A program made the translations under genes and the position numbers. From Nitrospira sp. (lineage in GTDB: Bacteria > Nitrospirota > Nitrospiria > Nitrospirales > Nitrospiraceae), in NCBI GenBank assembly GCA_035968315.1, contig JAVYIN010000005.1:806001-870000 (forward strand): DNA of 64,000 bases, written 5' to 3'. This document shows positions 33,694 through 47,448 of the stretch, piece by piece. Positions within the stretch are counted from its first letter, which is position 1. The number at the start of each line of letters is the position of its first letter. The notes beneath the pieces are model-generated. The model was not told the DNA's origin. It was given only the letters and a program-made list of their open reading frames with translations, and did not search any database.

Positions 33694-33788
33694 ATCAATC
33701 CTTGTCGGTCGTTATATTGTCTATCTGGTCTATTCGGTCGGTCGGTCTGTCTGGTCTGTCTAGTCTTTTTCGTCTGTCTGGTTCTCTG
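33694..33788. repeat. Low-complexity tandem GTCTGTC/GGTCGGTC repeat tract
   Basis: The gap between the diheme cytochrome and MoaD-like genes is made of short variations on GGTC and GTCTGTC on the plus strand (for example GGTCGGTCGGTCTGTCTGG at 33739-33757, and GTCTGTCTGG again at 33772). Read on the gene strand it is a purine-rich GACAGACC tract. It is not coding and may be a dispersed intergenic repeat. Confidence 0.5.
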
Positions 33789-40245: not shown

Positions 40246-40536
40246 AATGCCCCCCTTTCCTCAATGACCACGCATAGTTGCGCAGCCGGCCGGATAAGCC
40301 GTAGATGGACTCGAACACAGGCGATGAAATGTAATGGCAATTCGAGGAGAAGACTGGACGGGACCCTGCAGGAAAAAATACATCACTCGCGGAACCCATC
40401 GGTAAAATGAAAATCGCGCTGGAAGTAACATAGCAATTCACCCTTGTCAAGCAATTCTTCCGCGCGCATAAGATTTCCCCTGCGGTTTACAAGGCTGGGC
40501 GACTTCCCTATAGTGACGGAACAGTTCCCATTGACG
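40246..40536. other. Divergent intergenic region between cspA-like gene and lptF
   Basis: No gene is supported in this stretch. It separates the leftward cold-shock gene from the rightward lptF and should hold the promoters of both. GC content falls toward 40370-40450. The longer open frame of lptF upstream of 40537 has no good ribosome-binding site. Confidence 0.4.
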
Positions 40537-41637
40537 ATGACACCTGTGATTCTACGAACCCTGCTCGACCGCTATATTTTCACCGAACTGCTCTCCCCCT
40601 TTGGGCTGAGCCTCGGCGCCCTGTGCTTCGTCATGCTCACCAGAGAGCTGCTCCGCCTCGTCGAACTCCTGGTGTCCAAGGGAGTCGGCCTTTGGGCGGT
40701 CATGAAAGTCTTCGCCACGCTGCTGCCGTCCTTCTTGGTCCTGACGCTGCCCATTGCCGGCATCATTGCCTCGATTACGGCCTTTGGACGCCTCTCCTTC
40801 GACAAGGAGCTCGTCGCCATGCGCGCGGCGGGATTGAGCCTCTTCCGCCTGACCCAGCCGGTCCTCCTGTTCGCCATCTCCGTGTTTGGCTTGACCCTGC
40901 TGCTCTCTCAATGGGGGCAGCCCTGGAGCTCGCTCAATCTCAAGAAGGTCGCGCTGAACCTCTTGCGCGATCAACTCGTGCTGGCGCTCGAACGCGGCAC
41001 GTTCAACGAACCGATCCCGAATGTGATGATCTATATCCCCGACAGCCAATCAGGGCAGCCCGCTCCGGGCATTTTCGTCTCGGACGAACGGGTGCGCGAT
41101 GAACCGCGCATCATTGTCGCCGAACACTACGAGGTCCTCATGGACGCCGAGCACGAGCAAGTCGCGCTCCGGCTAGTCAATGGGGTGATTCATAGCCGTC
41201 CGGATGTCGTCGATCAATACCAGCAAGTCTCGTTTACGAATTACGATTTGAAGATGAACCTGAGTCAAAGCGGCTATGCCGCGACCGAAGAACGCCCCAC
41301 CTACGCCAGCATTCTGGCAACATTGAATGCGACCCAATGGAAGGATCAACAGGCCTTGCGCCGCCTGATGGAGCACTATAAAGATCTCGCCTTCCCGACG
41401 GCGTCGCTGGTCTTCTGCCTGATGGGCGTGCCTGTCGGCATTGTCTCCAAACGCTCGGGCCGCATGGGGGGATTTGCCGTCGGCGTCCTGATTGTCGTGG
41501 CCTATTATATTTTGAACATCGCCTGCGAATTTCTCGTGACCACGCTTTGGATCTCCCCGTTTGCCGGCGCCTGGCTGCCGAACGGGCTGTTCACGCTGCT
41601 CACGATCGGACTCTTCTGGAACATGAGCCGCCAATAG
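40537..41637 (+). CDS. lptF: LPS export permease LptF (YjgP/YjgQ family)
   Basis: A 366-residue inner-membrane protein. The ATG at 40537 begins MTPVILRTLLDRYIFTELLSP, typical of the family; the longer frame to 40444 would add 31 residues with no leader function. Membrane segments are at about residues 20-40, 55-75, 100-120 and in the last 100 residues, enclosing a periplasmic beta-jellyroll. FTELLSPFGLSLGALCFVM and SFDKELVAMRAAGLS are hallmark segments. LptF joins LptB2 and LptG in extracting LPS from the inner membrane. lptG starts 5 bases after its stop. Confidence 0.9.
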   Translation: MTPVILRTLLDRYIFTELLSPFGLSLGALCFVMLTRELLRLVELLVSKGVGLWAVMKVFATLLPSFLVLTLPIAGIIASITAFGRLSFDKELVAMRAAGLSLFRLTQPVLLFAISVFGLTLLLSQWGQPWSSLNLKKVALNLLRDQLVLALERGTFNEPIPNVMIYIPDSQSGQPAPGIFVSDERVRDEPRIIVAEHYEVLMDAEHEQVALRLVNGVIHSRPDVVDQYQQVSFTNYDLKMNLSQSGYAATEERPTYASILATLNATQWKDQQALRRLMEHYKDLAFPTASLVFCLMGVPVGIVSKRSGRMGGFAVGVLIVVAYYILNIACEFLVTTLWISPFAGAWLPNGLFTLLTIGLFWNMSRQ

Positions 41638-41642
41638 CCGTT

Positions 41643-42734
41643 ATGACGATTCTCTTCCGCTATATTCTCCGCGAATACGCCAAGATTTTCCTCATGTGTT
41701 TCTCCGGATTGATGACCATCTATCTCGTCATCGACTTTTTCGAAAAAGTCCGCCGGTTCCTGCGCTATGACGCCAACATGCTCGACGTGCTGACTTACTT
41801 CGCGCTCAAAACGCCGGCCATCTCGTTCCAAATCTCGCCGCTGGCCATCTTGATGGCCACACTCCTGACACTGGGCCTCTTCTCCCGCAACAATGAAATC
41901 ACCGCCATGCGCAGTTGCGGCATCAGCCTGCCGTGGATCGCCTCTCCGTTCCTGATCTTTGCCACGGTCATCTCCCTCATCCTGCTCAGCTTCAGCTCGA
42001 CCGTCATCCCGCTGGCATCCGAAAAAGCGGAACAGATTCGCCTGGTCAACATCGAGAAAAAGCCCGCGCCCTCGACGGTCAAACCGGCACATCCATGGGC
42101 GAGAACCGACGCCAACACCTTGATGCATATCTCCGAGATCGAAATCGGCGGGGCTATCCTCCACAACGTCCATCTCTACCACTTGCAGAATGGATTCCGG
42201 CTGGACCGGATGACGGAAGCCGCCACGGCGCAATACGGTCCGGAGGGGTGGATGCTCTCACAGGGCAATCAACGCCGCTTCAATCCGAACGGCACGGTGG
42301 CGCTGATCGAGTTCACGCAACAGCCCATCGATCTCTCCCTGATTCCCGACGACTTTACGACCTGGCTCGCGGGAGAGTCCGACACGATGACGGTCCGGGA
42401 AATCCGGCACTACCTTGCCCGCTTCAAAGACGAGGGGTTCTCCTTCGCCCGTCTCCGCACGGACTATTACGGACGCCTGGCCTTCCCCTTCGTCGCCATC
42501 ATTATGGTGATCGTCGGGATCGCCTTGAGTCTGCGCCGGAGCGGCGTGCGCGGAGGCAGCATGGCCATGGGCATCGGCCAGGCCTTCGTGGTCGGCTTCT
42601 GCTACTGGACGACCCATTCCATCGCCATCGCCTTGGGCCGGGGCGGCGCGCTGGAGCCCATGCTCGCCGGATGGATGGCCAATCTCCTGTTCGCCAGCTT
42701 CGGCCTCTATCTCCTGCTCAAAGTTCGCTATTAA
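41643..42734 (+). CDS. lptG: LPS export permease LptG
   Basis: A 363-residue inner-membrane protein. The ATG at 41643 gives the typical opening MTILFRYILREYAKIFLM; earlier in-frame codons would overlap lptF. It carries FFEKVRRFLRYDANMLDV and the conserved NNEITAMRSCGISLPW segment, and four to six membrane spans at both ends around a periplasmic domain. Together with LptF it forms the heterodimeric permease of the LPS transport machine. LptB, LptC and LptA are not encoded in this window. Confidence 0.9.
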   Translation: MTILFRYILREYAKIFLMCFSGLMTIYLVIDFFEKVRRFLRYDANMLDVLTYFALKTPAISFQISPLAILMATLLTLGLFSRNNEITAMRSCGISLPWIASPFLIFATVISLILLSFSSTVIPLASEKAEQIRLVNIEKKPAPSTVKPAHPWARTDANTLMHISEIEIGGAILHNVHLYHLQNGFRLDRMTEAATAQYGPEGWMLSQGNQRRFNPNGTVALIEFTQQPIDLSLIPDDFTTWLAGESDTMTVREIRHYLARFKDEGFSFARLRTDYYGRLAFPFVAIIMVIVGIALSLRRSGVRGGSMAMGIGQAFVVGFCYWTTHSIAIALGRGGALEPMLAGWMANLLFASFGLYLLLKVRY

Positions 42735-42814: not shown

Positions 42815-44071
42815 GTGGCCGTTCGTGTGGTAATTACCGGGCTTGGAATCGTCTCCCCTATTGGAATCGGCGTGAGCGCCTTTTGGAAAGCCGCATTGGC
42901 CGGCCAATCGGGCATTTCGGCGATCACCTCGTTCGACCCGTTTCCCATGGATGGCTATCGCTCAAAGGTGGCCGGACAAATCCATGACTTTTCCCCTGCA
43001 CTCCATATCGGCTCGCAACAGGGCGACCGCGTGGACCGCTATGCCCAGTTTGCCCTCGCGGCCAGCCGCGAAGCCATTGCCGACTCCAAGCTGCGCATCG
43101 ACAAAGAGCCGCCGCACCGTGTCGGCGTGATCGTCGGAGCCGGGATGGGCGGAATGGTCATGGGCGAGCGCGAGATCACCCAACTCTACGAGACTCACAA
43201 GCCACACCGCGTGCACCCCAACTTCATTCCGACGATTACCTTGAATTCCGCCTCGGGGATTGTGGCGATGGCCTCCGGTGCGAAAGGGCCAAATCTCACG
43301 ATTTCAACGGCCTGCTCATCCAGCGCCCATGCCCTGGGCCAGGCGCTGCAATGCATTCGCGCCGGCCAAGCCGATGTCGTCATTACCGTCGGCGCCGATG
43401 CCAGCATTACCCCCCTTGTTTTTGCCGGCTTTTGCTCGATGCGCGCCCTATCCAGCAAGTTCAATGACCAGCCGCAACGCGCCTCCCGTCCATTCGACCG
43501 GGGGCGGGACGGATTCGTGATGGGCGAAGGCGCAGGCGCACTGATTGTCGAATCACTGGCCCACGCGAAGAAACGGAAAGCGGCCATCTATGCCGAACTC
43601 TCCGGTTACGCCGCCACGAGTGAGGCGTACCACATGGTCATTCCCCGTGAAGACGGCGAAGAAGTAGCCACGACCATGAAGCTGGCCTTGAAGGCCGCCG
43701 ACGTGAGCCCTTCAGAAGTGGACTACATCAACGCCCATGCCACGTCGACCACTATCGGCGATGCCGTCGAAGCGAAGGCCATCCGCAGCCTCTTCAAGAG
43801 TCGAGCGGATAAGATTGCCATCAGTGCCACAAAATCCCTGGTCGGACATACCTTGGGCGCGGCCGGCGCCATTGGCGCCATCGCGACGACCTTGGCGATT
43901 CAGTCAGGCCACATTCATCCCACGGCGAACTATGATGACCCCGACCCAGACTGCCAACTAAGCGGCATCAGCCGCTCACCCCAAGAGCGCACGATCAGAG
44001 CCGCGTTGCTCAATGCCTTTGGGTTCGGCAGCAACAACGCCGCCGTGGTGCTCAAATCATTCAAAGCCTAG
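42815..44071 (+). CDS. 3-oxoacyl-ACP synthase, FabF-type (KS II)
   Basis: A 418-residue condensing enzyme starting at GTG, with AAGGAG eight bases before it. The catalytic triad is Cys167 (TISTACSSSAH), His308 (NAHATSTT) and His345 (GHTLGAAGA), with Lys340. The N-terminal RVVITGLGIVSPIGIG is typical. It elongates acyl-ACP with malonyl-ACP in fatty acid synthesis. It is followed at 32 bases by a gene for a dedicated acyl carrier protein and then lpxD, and not by the usual fab genes. A role in making the acyl chain for lipid A is therefore inferred. Confidence 0.9.
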   Translation: MAVRVVITGLGIVSPIGIGVSAFWKAALAGQSGISAITSFDPFPMDGYRSKVAGQIHDFSPALHIGSQQGDRVDRYAQFALAASREAIADSKLRIDKEPPHRVGVIVGAGMGGMVMGEREITQLYETHKPHRVHPNFIPTITLNSASGIVAMASGAKGPNLTISTACSSSAHALGQALQCIRAGQADVVITVGADASITPLVFAGFCSMRALSSKFNDQPQRASRPFDRGRDGFVMGEGAGALIVESLAHAKKRKAAIYAELSGYAATSEAYHMVIPREDGEEVATTMKLALKAADVSPSEVDYINAHATSTTIGDAVEAKAIRSLFKSRADKIAISATKSLVGHTLGAAGAIGAIATTLAIQSGHIHPTANYDDPDPDCQLSGISRSPQERTIRAALLNAFGFGSNNAAVVLKSFKA

Positions 44072-44103
44072 CAAGCCCCTGCGGCGAAGAAGGAACCACC
44101 ACC

Positions 44104-44532
44104 ATGGCCGACCAGACGATCGTTGACAAGATCACGCAGGCTCTCGCAGCCTACCTGAAACGGGATGCCGCCACGATTCACGCCGCTCACCATTTGCGCG
44201 ACGACCTTGGGCTCGACTCGATGGCGGTGATCGAACTCCTCTACAAAATCGAAGAGACCTTCGACCTCCAAATCCCTGACCAGGATCTTTCGGCCATGAC
44301 AACCGTGGGATCGGTCGCGGCCTATGTGGAGAAGCGTCTGGCTCCAGCCTCCAGTACTCCGGCAGCCTCCCCCAAACCGGCTCCGACCAAACGCACTCCG
44401 GCAGCCAAACCCACATCATCCTCGACCAAGAAGACTCCGGCGGCCAAGCCCACATCTTCCAAGGCCAAGAACGCTCCGTCCGCCAAACCGAAACACGCAC
44501 CGGCTAAACCCGCATCGAAAAGGAAGGTCTGA
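44104..44532 (+). CDS. Acyl carrier protein with a long lysine/proline/alanine-rich C-terminal tail
   Basis: A 142-residue protein. Residues 1-80 are an acyl carrier domain with the phosphopantetheine serine Ser39 in LGLDSMAVIELL, followed by DLQIPDQDLSAMTTVGSVA. Residues 81-142 form a basic low-complexity tail of repeated TPAAKP, KPTSS and AKN units with 15 or so Lys/Arg and no acidic residues. Ordinary ACPs are about 80 residues and acidic. The tail resembles histone H1-like tails and makes the protein a charge mosaic. AAGGAA precedes the start. It lies between the FabF-type gene and lpxD. Confidence 0.85.
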   Translation: MADQTIVDKITQALAAYLKRDAATIHAAHHLRDDLGLDSMAVIELLYKIEETFDLQIPDQDLSAMTTVGSVAAYVEKRLAPASSTPAASPKPAPTKRTPAAKPTSSSTKKTPAAKPTSSKAKNAPSAKPKHAPAKPASKRKV

Positions 44533-44535
44533 CCG

Positions 44536-45633
44536 ATGGCTGCCTCAACTCCATCGATTCAGCTGACACTCGCGCAAGTCCATCAACTGGTGGGTGGCGA
44601 ATTACACGGCGATGGGAATACCAGGCTCACCGGCCTCGCCGGCCTGGGCGAAGCCACTGCACACTCGTTATCCTTCGTGGCCAACGATAAAGCCGGCAAA
44701 ACACCCGGCGCGAGCCACGCCGGCGCCCTCTTAGTCCATCGCCATCTCGCAGAGCTTCCTGTGCCTCAGATCGTGGTCGCCAATCCTCAGCTGGCGTTTG
44801 CGCAGACGGCTCAAACCTTCTTCGTCCCTTCTGCCCCCCCGCGAGGCATTGCCGCGGATCTGGTGCGTGGTACAGCGGTTGAGCTCGGCGCCGACGTCTC
44901 CATCTGGCCCTTCGTCTCGCTGGGAGATCGTGTCAGGATTGGAGCCAGAGTGACCCTCTATCCGGGCGTCTTTGTCGGCTCGGATTCGACCATCGGCGAC
45001 GATACGATTCTCTACCCCAATGTCGTTGTGCGTGAAGGCTGTTCGATCGGCGCCCGAGTCATTGTCCACAGCGGAACGGTCATTGGATCGGATGGATTTG
45101 GCTACGTCCAGCATCAAGGACGCCACCATAAGATCCCACAACTGGGCGGCGTGACGATCGAAGATGATGTGGAATTGGGCGCGAACGTCACGATCGACCG
45201 GGCGACCCTGGGACAGACCGTGATTCAAACCGGCACCAAGGTCGATAACCTCGTGCAGATCGCCCATAACGTCACGGTGGGCGCGCACTCCATCGTCGTG
45301 GCACAGGTCGGGATTGCCGGCAGCACGACGATCGGCCGGCATGTGATGATCGGTGGACAAGCAGGCCTGGCGGATCATTTATCGATCGGCGATCAAGTGA
45401 TGATTGCGGCGCGCGCAGGAGTGAACCGCAGCTTGGAGCCGAATCAGATCGTTTCCGGCGCGCCGGTGATGCCGCATGAAACCTGGATGAAGGCCCAGGC
45501 CGTGATTCCCCGGCTTCCCGAACTCCGGCAGTTGGTGAGAAATCTGGAGCAGCGTGTCGCAGAGCTGGAAGGAAAACTCGCGCTGGCCACGCAGCCGGCG
45601 CCGAAAAAGCCCGCTCGCCGATCACCGCGATAA
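44536..45633 (+). CDS. lpxD: UDP-3-O-(3-hydroxyacyl)glucosamine N-acyltransferase LpxD
   Basis: A 365-residue enzyme of lipid A biosynthesis. After an N-terminal uridine-binding domain ([19 protein letters not shown], then [10 protein letters not shown]) comes the left-handed beta-helix with hexapeptide repeats ([36 protein letters not shown]) and the catalytic-type His in [18 protein letters not shown]. It transfers a 3-hydroxyacyl group from ACP to the UDP-glucosamine intermediate. The C-terminal extension ([19 protein letters not shown]) is basic. It follows a dedicated acyl carrier protein gene by 3 bases. Confidence 0.94.
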
Positions 45634-45647
45634 GAATGTCGCGCCAC

Positions 45648-46166
45648 TCAGACTCGGCCACGCCAGAAAAACAGCCTCGCCCAATAGAACCCCGCCCATG
45701 GCAGGAGCAAGGCCGGTACCGCATCCACCTGGCCCATCATGGCCGCAAACCAGGATGATCCCAAGATCATGCCCGTTCCAACTGTGTACGCAACGGGAAT
45801 GAGCTGCCGGCCCTGATGGTCGATGACCGGAAGATCCGGATCTTTTTTAACCTTACTCCCCTTCTTCGCCGTAGCCGACCGCATCCTGGCCGCCAGCACC
45901 TCGGGAAATTGCGCCAGCAAGAACTGGTGATAGCGTGTCTGCACGATGCCCATCACCACGCCGAGAACAATCAGCCCCGTACTCTGGTAAAACGTGCCCC
46001 ACGTATAATTGTCTGTCGCAAGCAGCTGGTATCCCAGCCCGCCCACGCCTCCGACCATGCAAATCAATCCCACAATCCCAGACGGAAGGAGAATGTAGGA
46101 CTTCACATAATCCTGCGCGTGCTGCGCAATCTGTTCAGGCCGCGGCCTGGCAATCAATTTCGACAC
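45648..46166 (-). CDS. Predicted four-helix membrane protein of unknown function
   Basis: A 172-residue protein starting at GTG 46164-46166, with GAGGA a few bases before it; the longer frame to 46583 is the shadow of another gene. It has hydrophobic segments at about residues 26-52, 56-82, 128-148 and 152-170, with a lysine-rich loop (SATAKKGSKVKKDPDLPV). I do not recognise the family. It is the last gene of the leftward chemosensory strand and convergent with lpxD, with 14 bases between stops. Whether it belongs to the chemosensory system is uncertain. Confidence 0.6.
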   Translation of the reverse strand: MSKLIARPRPEQIAQHAQDYVKSYILLPSGIVGLICMVGGVGGLGYQLLATDNYTWGTFYQSTGLIVLGVVMGIVQTRYHQFLLAQFPEVLAARMRSATAKKGSKVKKDPDLPVIDHQGRQLIPVAYTVGTGMILGSSWFAAMMGQVDAVPALLLPWAGFYWARLFFWRGRV

Positions 46167-46347
46167 AATATCCTCACTGCAAGACGATACCGATAAGGGA
46201 ATTGGGACGGGCCTGATTATAACGATCCTGAGACGATCTTGAAACCGTTCATCTTGAAGAGTTCGGAAGGCTGGACTGGAGAGGGAGAAAAGATCTGACC
46301 TGACGGGTATTCCGTCGATGAGTACAAGGATAGGTACGGGAAAAGAC

Positions 46348-47448
46348 TCAGAACACCGTGGAGCCTTCCTGGCTGAGCGGTTCCTGAACCGGCTCCGCAA
46401 TAGGCTGGTCCGGCTCCTCCTGCGCACACGCCTCTTGGGTTTCCACGGCACCCTGAATGGCCGACGCAATGATATCGAGACTCTCCAGCAACGCAGTAAA
46501 CCGATCCGAACCCATGCCAGGCTGGACAGAATCTCCCCCATCGACAGCATGAGGCTCCGGGGCAAAGGTAACACGTCCAACAACGGGAAAGCTCAGCGCT
46601 TCAATGACCCCCACGAGCGGGGTCAAACTCAAATCAACCTGACGGTTCGCCGCGCCATCTTCCGACCCAGCTTCATCTACCTTTACAATTGGCCGTAGCG
46701 GATAGCGCGGGTTGACGCCCACAACCAACCCGGTTTCTCCGGTCGTCAATCGAACCGTAGTGCCCAGCGGGTAGACCGATAACTGTTCGACCAGGGCTTT
46801 CACGATCTCTCTCGGGAACGTCATCCGCTCTGCCACCATCAACTCTTGAATCGCCACGTGCGGAAGCATGCGGCGCCGATAGGGCCGCTCGCTGATCAGC
46901 GCATCGAAGACATCCGCGACTCCAATGATCTGCGCCATTTCGCTGATTTGCCGGCCTCTCAGCCTATTGGGATACCCTAAACCGTTCGAACGTTCATGCG
47001 CCTCTCGAACCACCTGCGCCAGCCACAGATACTCAGGGCCGGCCCGCTTGATGACCTCGTAACCCAGTTCCGGATGCTGTTCGATCAGCATCCGTTCATC
47101 CGGCGTCAGACGCCCCTCCTTCGTGACAAGTGACTGCGGCACAGCACACAACCCGATATCGTGAACAAGCCCGGCCACGGCCAGACGCTCCAACTCTGTA
47201 CCGAAATATCCCAGCCGCATGCCCATTTTGGTGGCCACAATGGCCACATTCAGCAGATTCGTCAGGACGGGATCACCGGAAGGGCTTGATAACGCCACCA
47301 CCGTCAATGCCTCGTTCCGCTTCAGCGACACCACCAACTCCGTCGCCAGCGACGTCACGCGATCAAGACACACGACCTCCTGGCGTTGAATCGCCAACGC
47401 CAATCGCCCCAATTCATCTTCGGCTTCGCGATACCACGACATCAACAT
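46348..47448 (-). CDS. HD-GYP domain protein, probable cyclic-di-GMP phosphodiesterase
   Basis: A 366-residue cytoplasmic protein. The ATG at 47446-47448 is preceded by AGAAGG and is preferred over one at 47464-47466. The HD-GYP core shows LVHDIGLCAVP, EQHPELGYEVIKRAG, HERSNGLGYPNRLRG and IIGVADVFDALISERPYR. The final third (YPLGTTVRLTTGETGLVVG) is a segment often found after HD-GYP. The family hydrolyses cyclic di-GMP. It closes the chemosensory operon, so the array may modulate cyclic di-GMP, which would affect motility or attachment rather than only swimming direction. Confidence 0.9.
   Translation of the reverse strand: MLMSWYREAEDELGRLALAIQRQEVVCLDRVTSLATELVVSLKRNEALTVVALSSPSGDPVLTNLLNVAIVATKMGMRLGYFGTELERLAVAGLVHDIGLCAVPQSLVTKEGRLTPDERMLIEQHPELGYEVIKRAGPEYLWLAQVVREAHERSNGLGYPNRLRGRQISEMAQIIGVADVFDALISERPYRRRMLPHVAIQELMVAERMTFPREIVKALVEQLSVYPLGTTVRLTTGETGLVVGVNPRYPLRPIVKVDEAGSEDGAANRQVDLSLTPLVGVIEALSFPVVGRVTFAPEPHAVDGGDSVQPGMGSDRFTALLESLDIIASAIQGAVETQEACAQEEPDQPIAEPVQEPLSQEGSTVF

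Follow-up and report, generated by a model that had tools for sequence, protein, structure and literature searches.

Why should a bacterium that already has a standard acyl carrier protein (ACP) and a standard FabF keep another FabF-type beta-ketoacyl-ACP synthase (KS) and another ACP directly in front of lpxD, and why should this second carrier end in a long basic tail? The question is raised by a stretch of 64,000 nucleotides (the window, G000:C5:806001-870000) within a 3.11 Mb genome of 11 contigs, whose nearest named relatives are Nitrospira, including N. moscoviensis and Ca. N. defluvii. The original prediction, made from the letters of the window, placed KS, ACP and lpxD downstream of lptF-lptG at 42815-45633, an arrangement that is confirmed here by open reading frames (ORFs) and profile scores. 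It also proposed that the special ACP carries hydroxyacyl chains to LpxD, perhaps anchored by its tail.

The locus and its standard counterparts

All five genes from lptF to lpxD lie on the same strand (Table 1), with gaps of 80 bases between lptG and KS, 32 between KS and ACP and 3 between ACP and lpxD. A search for terminator-like sites gave two matches on the + strand, inside lptF and beyond lpxD, and none from lptG to lpxD. The real starts of lptF and lptG may each lie inside the ORF listed. Taken more widely, the neighbours of lpxD in the window run in the order TPR, csp, lptF, lptG, KS, ACP, lpxD, a gene at 45648 and HD. The gene at 45648-46583 (- strand) faces lpxD, has no Pfam or NCBIfam match and is present in 36/40 neighbourhoods of the family and in most loci of the sister family (f2). 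Elsewhere in the window, positions 33719-33782 hold a short 9-base tandem repeat of 7.2 copies.

Table 1. Features of the lpxD locus, in window positions
Feature	Position	Strand	Evidence or remark
lptF, LPS export permease	40444..41637	+	PF03739 247 bits; TIGR04407 227.1, slightly below cut-off 230
lptG, LPS export permease	41547..42734	+	TIGR04408 266.7, cut-off 240
FabF-type beta-ketoacyl-ACP synthase (KS), 418 aa, GTG start	42815..44071	+	TIGR03150, motifs
Special ACP, 142 aa, attachment site Ser39	44104..44532	+	PF00550, AlphaFold2 model, fold search
Disordered basic tail of ACP, residues 81-142	44344..44529	+	AlphaFold2 pLDDT block means 51-67
39-base tandem repeat, 2.4 copies, under ACP tail	44395..44489	+	Repeat finding
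lpxD, 365 aa	44536..45633	+	TIGR01853 and NF002060 above cut-off
LpxD basic C-terminal tail, about residues 347-365	45574..45630	+	Past end of solved LpxD chains

The synthase scores 512.3 bits with the FabF / KAS II model TIGR03150 (cut-off 493.75), and its Cys, His and Lys-His motifs (TACSSS, NAHAT, KSLVGH) are intact, as they are in 39 relatives. The carrier scores 52.3 bits with PF00550 (cut-off 20.8) and falls below the cut-off of the general AcpP equivalog (TIGR00517, 60.7 against 70.45). As predicted, its Ser39 stands in a normal motif, DDLGLDS, and this serine is present in 40/40 family rows. The AlphaFold2 model has a confident four-helix ACP core followed by an unstructured tail, and the best 50 matches in a fold search with the model are all ACPs, alone or in complexes. 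LpxD scores 373.8 with TIGR01853 (cut-off 242.5), and its His244 aligns with the catalytic His239 of E. coli LpxD.

A separate standard cluster, fabD-fabG-acpP-fabF (C11, L001; gene names assigned by reading its ORFs), is present in the same genome, and its ACP is the only other PF00550 match above the cut-off. The two pairs have ACP and FabF families and motifs in common; the standard ACP is 28-29% identical to the window ACP, and the standard FabF 47% identical to the window KS. The window ACP had been called very unlike acidic standard ACPs. This holds for the tail of 62 residues (close to the 60 predicted), which has 13 Lys, two Arg, no Asp or Glu and a net charge of +15, whereas the core is itself acidic, with a net charge of -6 compared with -17 for the standard AcpP, which has no tail.

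Other parts of the pathway are found away from the locus. lpxA and the sole fabZ of the genome are together on another contig, beside ORFs resembling lpxI and ompH. No reductase or dehydratase dedicated to the pair was found in the locus with Pfam and NCBIfam profiles or in the neighbourhoods. One PF01648 phosphopantetheinyl transferase was found in the genome, and it would thus have to serve both ACPs. An LpxA homologue is present in the lpxD locus of 11/11 class- and phylum-level outgroup loci (L082-L092), so lpxD has moved away from that site in the Nitrospira lineage. We also observed that lpxD accompanies lptF-lptG in the Nitrospira family and in part of f2.

Conservation of the trio and a proposed acyl supply to LpxD

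Within the family, the ACP query matches 97/98 genomes at E 0.001 or better and 89/98 at 8.8e-22 or better (window's genome counted). Neighbourhoods were drawn from all 22 genera, 40 in total, with two lpxD copies cut by contig ends; KS, ACP and lpxD are contiguous in 39/40 of them and in 21/22 genera. The exception is G006 (L044), a 1.7 Mb genome in which KS is missing and a damaged ACP frame lies between lptG and an intact lpxD. A strong ACP match is absent in nine family genomes (G006, G026, G037, G050, G094, G095, G076, G027 and G097). A search for lpxD in six of these returned none in G026, G037, G050, G094 and G095 and a partial match in G076. KS is still present in G037 and G094, where assembly gaps are possible. 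G050 is 1.8 Mb in size and rated 99% complete, and neither lpxD, KS nor ACP was found there, assembly gaps again being possible; this may point to a member of the family that lacks ordinary lipid A.

Beyond the family, strong ACP matches occur in only 3/10 genomes of f2 (198 genomes of the phylum searched). The lpxD loci of nine of these ten genomes were read, all except G249. KS-ACP-lpxD is present in G197, G234 and G244, and the other six have lpxD with neither KS nor ACP; five of the six keep the order lptF-lptG-lpxD, while G206 is without lptF or lptG homologues nearby. With both genes in three genomes and neither in six, KS and ACP are present or missing as a pair. That LpxD persists without them in 6/9 f2 genomes, and likewise in G006, which has lost KS and has a damaged ACP frame, indicates that LpxD does not require the pair.

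The trio also occurs on contig L140, which is titled Candidatus Anaeroferrophillacea and which the NCBI taxonomy places among deltaproteobacteria; its KS, ACP and LpxD share 62, 60 and 57% identity with their window counterparts. In a tree that does not fix its placement inside the clade, the L140 LpxD groups with those of Nitrospirales to the exclusion of the 11 outgroup sequences (30/41 rows, support 100/99); because of this grouping, the trio looks like a unit. The contig may be a binning error. Its ACP has no basic tail, and the end of its LpxD has a charge of -3. Weaker ACP matches in Alphaproteobacteria and others (L142-L172) were set aside, as none of them adjoins a KS/lpxD unit of the window type; in L153, genes resembling lpxD and lpxA are close to a distant ACP, and L144 has an ACP-FabF pair of the standard type. 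At L145:2739-6183 and comparable loci in Rhodobacteraceae, ORFs that appear to resemble parts of a 2-oxoacid dehydrogenase are followed by a small, distant ACP.

The predicted tie between a special pair and lpxD is borne out by its retention across genera next to a separate standard acpP-fabF, and by its presence on a contig outside the phylum. Against a strong version of the predicted donor role stand the f2 genomes that keep LpxD without the pair.

Helix II of the carrier differs from that of AcpP at two positions: position 41 is Ala in 36/40 rows and Asp in AcpP, and at position 47 the carrier has Tyr or Phe (40/40 rows) in place of the Met of AcpP. Glu44, in the same helix, is retained in 40/40 rows. 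According to the review PMC6286764, a basic patch of LpxD binds an acidic patch of ACP, and ACP Glu41 takes part in an ion pair. In our alignment, Glu44 of the window ACP corresponds to this E. coli ACP Glu41 that pairs with LpxD. With Glu44 kept and helix II otherwise altered, the carrier looks fit for LpxD and may be changed for some general partners. The same review places the end of the LpxD acyl pocket at Met290 in E. coli and at Gly298 in C. trachomatis, where the chain transferred is hydroxyarachidoyl. Met290 aligns with Gly295 of the window LpxD, which suggests space for a longer chain. We rejected the pocket-end Gly as a mark of the pair: it is found in holders of the pair and also in most f2 LpxDs without it. 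Across f2 and the family, no LpxD column convincingly separates holders from non-holders, residue 335 being the only one listed, and weak.

The reading that we favour, with a probability of roughly 0.5, is that KS and ACP would form a dedicated acyl-supply unit for LpxD. Its basis is the conserved trio, the finding that KS and ACP are either both there or both missing, the intact motifs and the altered surface of helix II. Because LpxD manages without the pair in relatives, we can only infer that the supply is dedicated to it. In outline, the ACP would receive phosphopantetheine and KS would partner with its own ACP; for malonyl loading, ketoreduction and dehydration the unit would presumably rely on the general fatty acid synthase; and a 3-hydroxyacyl chain loaded on the special ACP would be handed to LpxD as the N-acyl donor. 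The N-linked lipid A chain would thereby be kept apart from the bulk AcpP pool.

The main rival is that the pair supplies a different envelope step, whether a secondary acylation of lipid A, a lipoprotein or some other lipid of the outer membrane, and adjoins lpxD only by way of an envelope operon with lptF-lptG. That LpxD functions in relatives lacking the pair, and that lptF-lptG-lpxD stands without it in five f2 genomes, is what this alternative would lead one to expect. On the other hand, L140 and L075 (G244) keep KS-ACP-lpxD with no lptF or lptG homologues adjoining it; thus, lpxD, and not the lpt genes, seems to be what the pair is linked to, and we hold supply of another envelope step to be possible, though doubtful.

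Basic tails on the carrier and on unrelated enzymes

The breadth of the tail can be judged from several sets of loci. In 39 intact family ACPs the tails are 18-72 residues long, with a net charge of +5 to +18, 0-2 acidic residues and little shared sequence; a basic tail is present in 39/40 family loci, G006 again being the exception. Among 48 loci in named Nitrospirota records, one ACP is cut off and all 47 complete ones have a net charge of at least +5 in the last 20 residues. A tail unique to one strain, which would have counted against the original prediction, is thereby ruled out.

The carrier is not alone in this respect. PDB alignments to the window LpxD stop at residues 342-346, and its last 20 residues have a net charge of +6. 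At the same loci, a charge of at least +5 in the last 20 residues is found in 39/40 ACPs and 35/38 LpxDs (the two truncated copies dropped), in 3/28 TPR proteins (three truncated dropped), in 2/36 products of the 45648 gene, and in none of the KS (0/39), LptF (0/40), LptG (0/40), cold-shock (0/37) or HD (0/22) proteins. In f2, LpxD ends have charges of +7, +5 and +5 with the pair and +2, +4, 0, +2, +5 and +4 without it, a weak difference. The C-terminus of LpxA in the window's genome is an acidic stretch.

In a sample of 864 kb of the window's genome, 22 of the 715 called genes have strongly basic last 25 residues. They include lumazine synthase (RibH, L178:4895-5563) and pyruvate phosphate dikinase (PPDK, L181:11749-14589), both on contig C5, Lon and a GlmU-like protein (by Pfam; L351:2667-5081 and L346:15702-17348) and adenylosuccinate lyase (PurB, L178:6165-7502), as well as ordinary basic proteins such as ribosomal S9. 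The ends of Lon, GlmU-like and PurB are often Ala/Pro/Lys-rich, as are those of L188:9878-10321 and L191:2725-3141, each of which has one basic-ended relative in another genome. For PurB, Lon and GlmU the tail was observed in a single genome each: the PurB copies in the loci examined are truncated ahead of the C-terminus, and those loci yielded no relative of Lon or GlmU from a different genome. The RibH tail is basic in 26/26 family loci and in 1/27 outside the family. The PPDK tail is basic in 29/29 complete family loci (30 with one cut off; L290 and L292 are one gene, giving 28 distinct genomes) and in 13/24 outside the family, nine of which are nine f2 genomes (9/9).

We considered and rejected a proteome-wide rise of basic C-termini. 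They are no commoner in two family samples (9/339 and 7/272) than in the f2 sample (11/269), in counts that, like those of the 864 kb sample, are of called genes from an ORF caller that misses the ACP itself. What is notable is thus which genes have basic ends, not how many. The same counts speak against regarding the tails as nearly neutral low-complexity extensions arising from base composition and repeat slippage. Such an origin would suit the wide variation in tail sequence and length and the DNA tandem repeat beneath the window ACP tail; however, charge is kept where sequence is not (39/40), and KS, LptF and LptG at the same loci are free of tails, so we think neutral extension unlikely.

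In the form given by the original prediction, the tail would be an anchor, to the membrane or to a partner, that is peculiar to the synthesis of lipid A. In its favour, the adjoining LpxD has a basic tail as well, and LpxA, the other first-stage user of ACP, has an acidic end. Against it, the RibH and PPDK tails are conserved in the family just as those of ACP and LpxD are, and to our knowledge neither RibH nor PPDK has a role in lipid A. The tails of RibH, PPDK and LpxD mean that the ACP tail needs a more general explanation; a tail specific to lipid A is quite improbable, and the ACP tail is probably not a lipid A device. From the distribution of these sequences, the basic tail is a conserved lineage trait of selected genes, with lipid A only one of its settings.

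The tail is a separate matter from acyl supply: a conserved disordered polycation, found also on LpxD, RibH and PPDK. Its most likely role would be weak electrostatic tethering of selected enzymes to a shared polyanionic surface, with ACP and LpxD perhaps brought together as a by-product; the membrane, polyphosphate and nucleic acid are possible partners. More generally, and as a tentative suggestion, Nitrospirales may add disordered tails, conserved in charge and free in sequence, to unrelated enzymes (ACP, LpxD, RibH, PPDK and perhaps Lon, GlmU and adenylosuccinate lyase) as a shared address to one polyanionic surface or condensate, such as the membrane, a polyphosphate granule or the nucleoid. 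The tails would have been gained gene by gene, that of PPDK being present in both families and that of RibH in one only, with KS-ACP-LpxD tail-less outside the phylum. The broader question that they raise is why unrelated soluble enzymes of one family hold positive charge, rather than sequence, at the C-terminus.

Comparison with known systems

A literature search, mostly without subscription journals, found no paper on a KS-ACP-lpxD unit or on the tails. The closest likeness is to the cluster of rhizobia and Agrobacterium, acpXL-fabZXL-fabF2XL-fabF1XL-adhlA2XL-lpxXL (PMC11901934), in which a special ACP and a FabF-type synthase are likewise separate from general synthesis and associated with an acyltransferase of lipid A. 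That the window pair is a variant of this AcpXL system, supplying lipid A with very long chain fatty acids, is very improbable in spite of that likeness: the gene content differs from the known cluster, with one KS and no fabZ, second fabF, alcohol dehydrogenase or lpxXL among the identified neighbours (the sole fabZ being on another contig), the partner is LpxD, a primary acyltransferase, and the ACP has a basic disordered tail. If supply to LpxD is the true function, bacteria that are central to nitrification would have a second way, besides AcpXL, of separating lipid A chains from bulk synthesis: a carrier and a synthase set aside for the N-linked chain.

An ACP with a C-terminal extension is also known from mycobacterial AcpM (NF040636; PDB 1klp), a system in which lipid A is not known to play a part. 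The window ACP scores 45.6 with NF040636, far below the cut-off of 146, and the 115-residue chain of 1klp matches only over residues 27-79, the rest of that chain being what we take to be a flexible extension. The E. coli LpxD-ACP complex (PDB 4IHF; PMC6286764) is alike in its aligned catalytic His and in the ACP Glu kept for pairing with LpxD. It differs in that the general AcpP is used there, and the solved LpxDs stop short of the basic tail.
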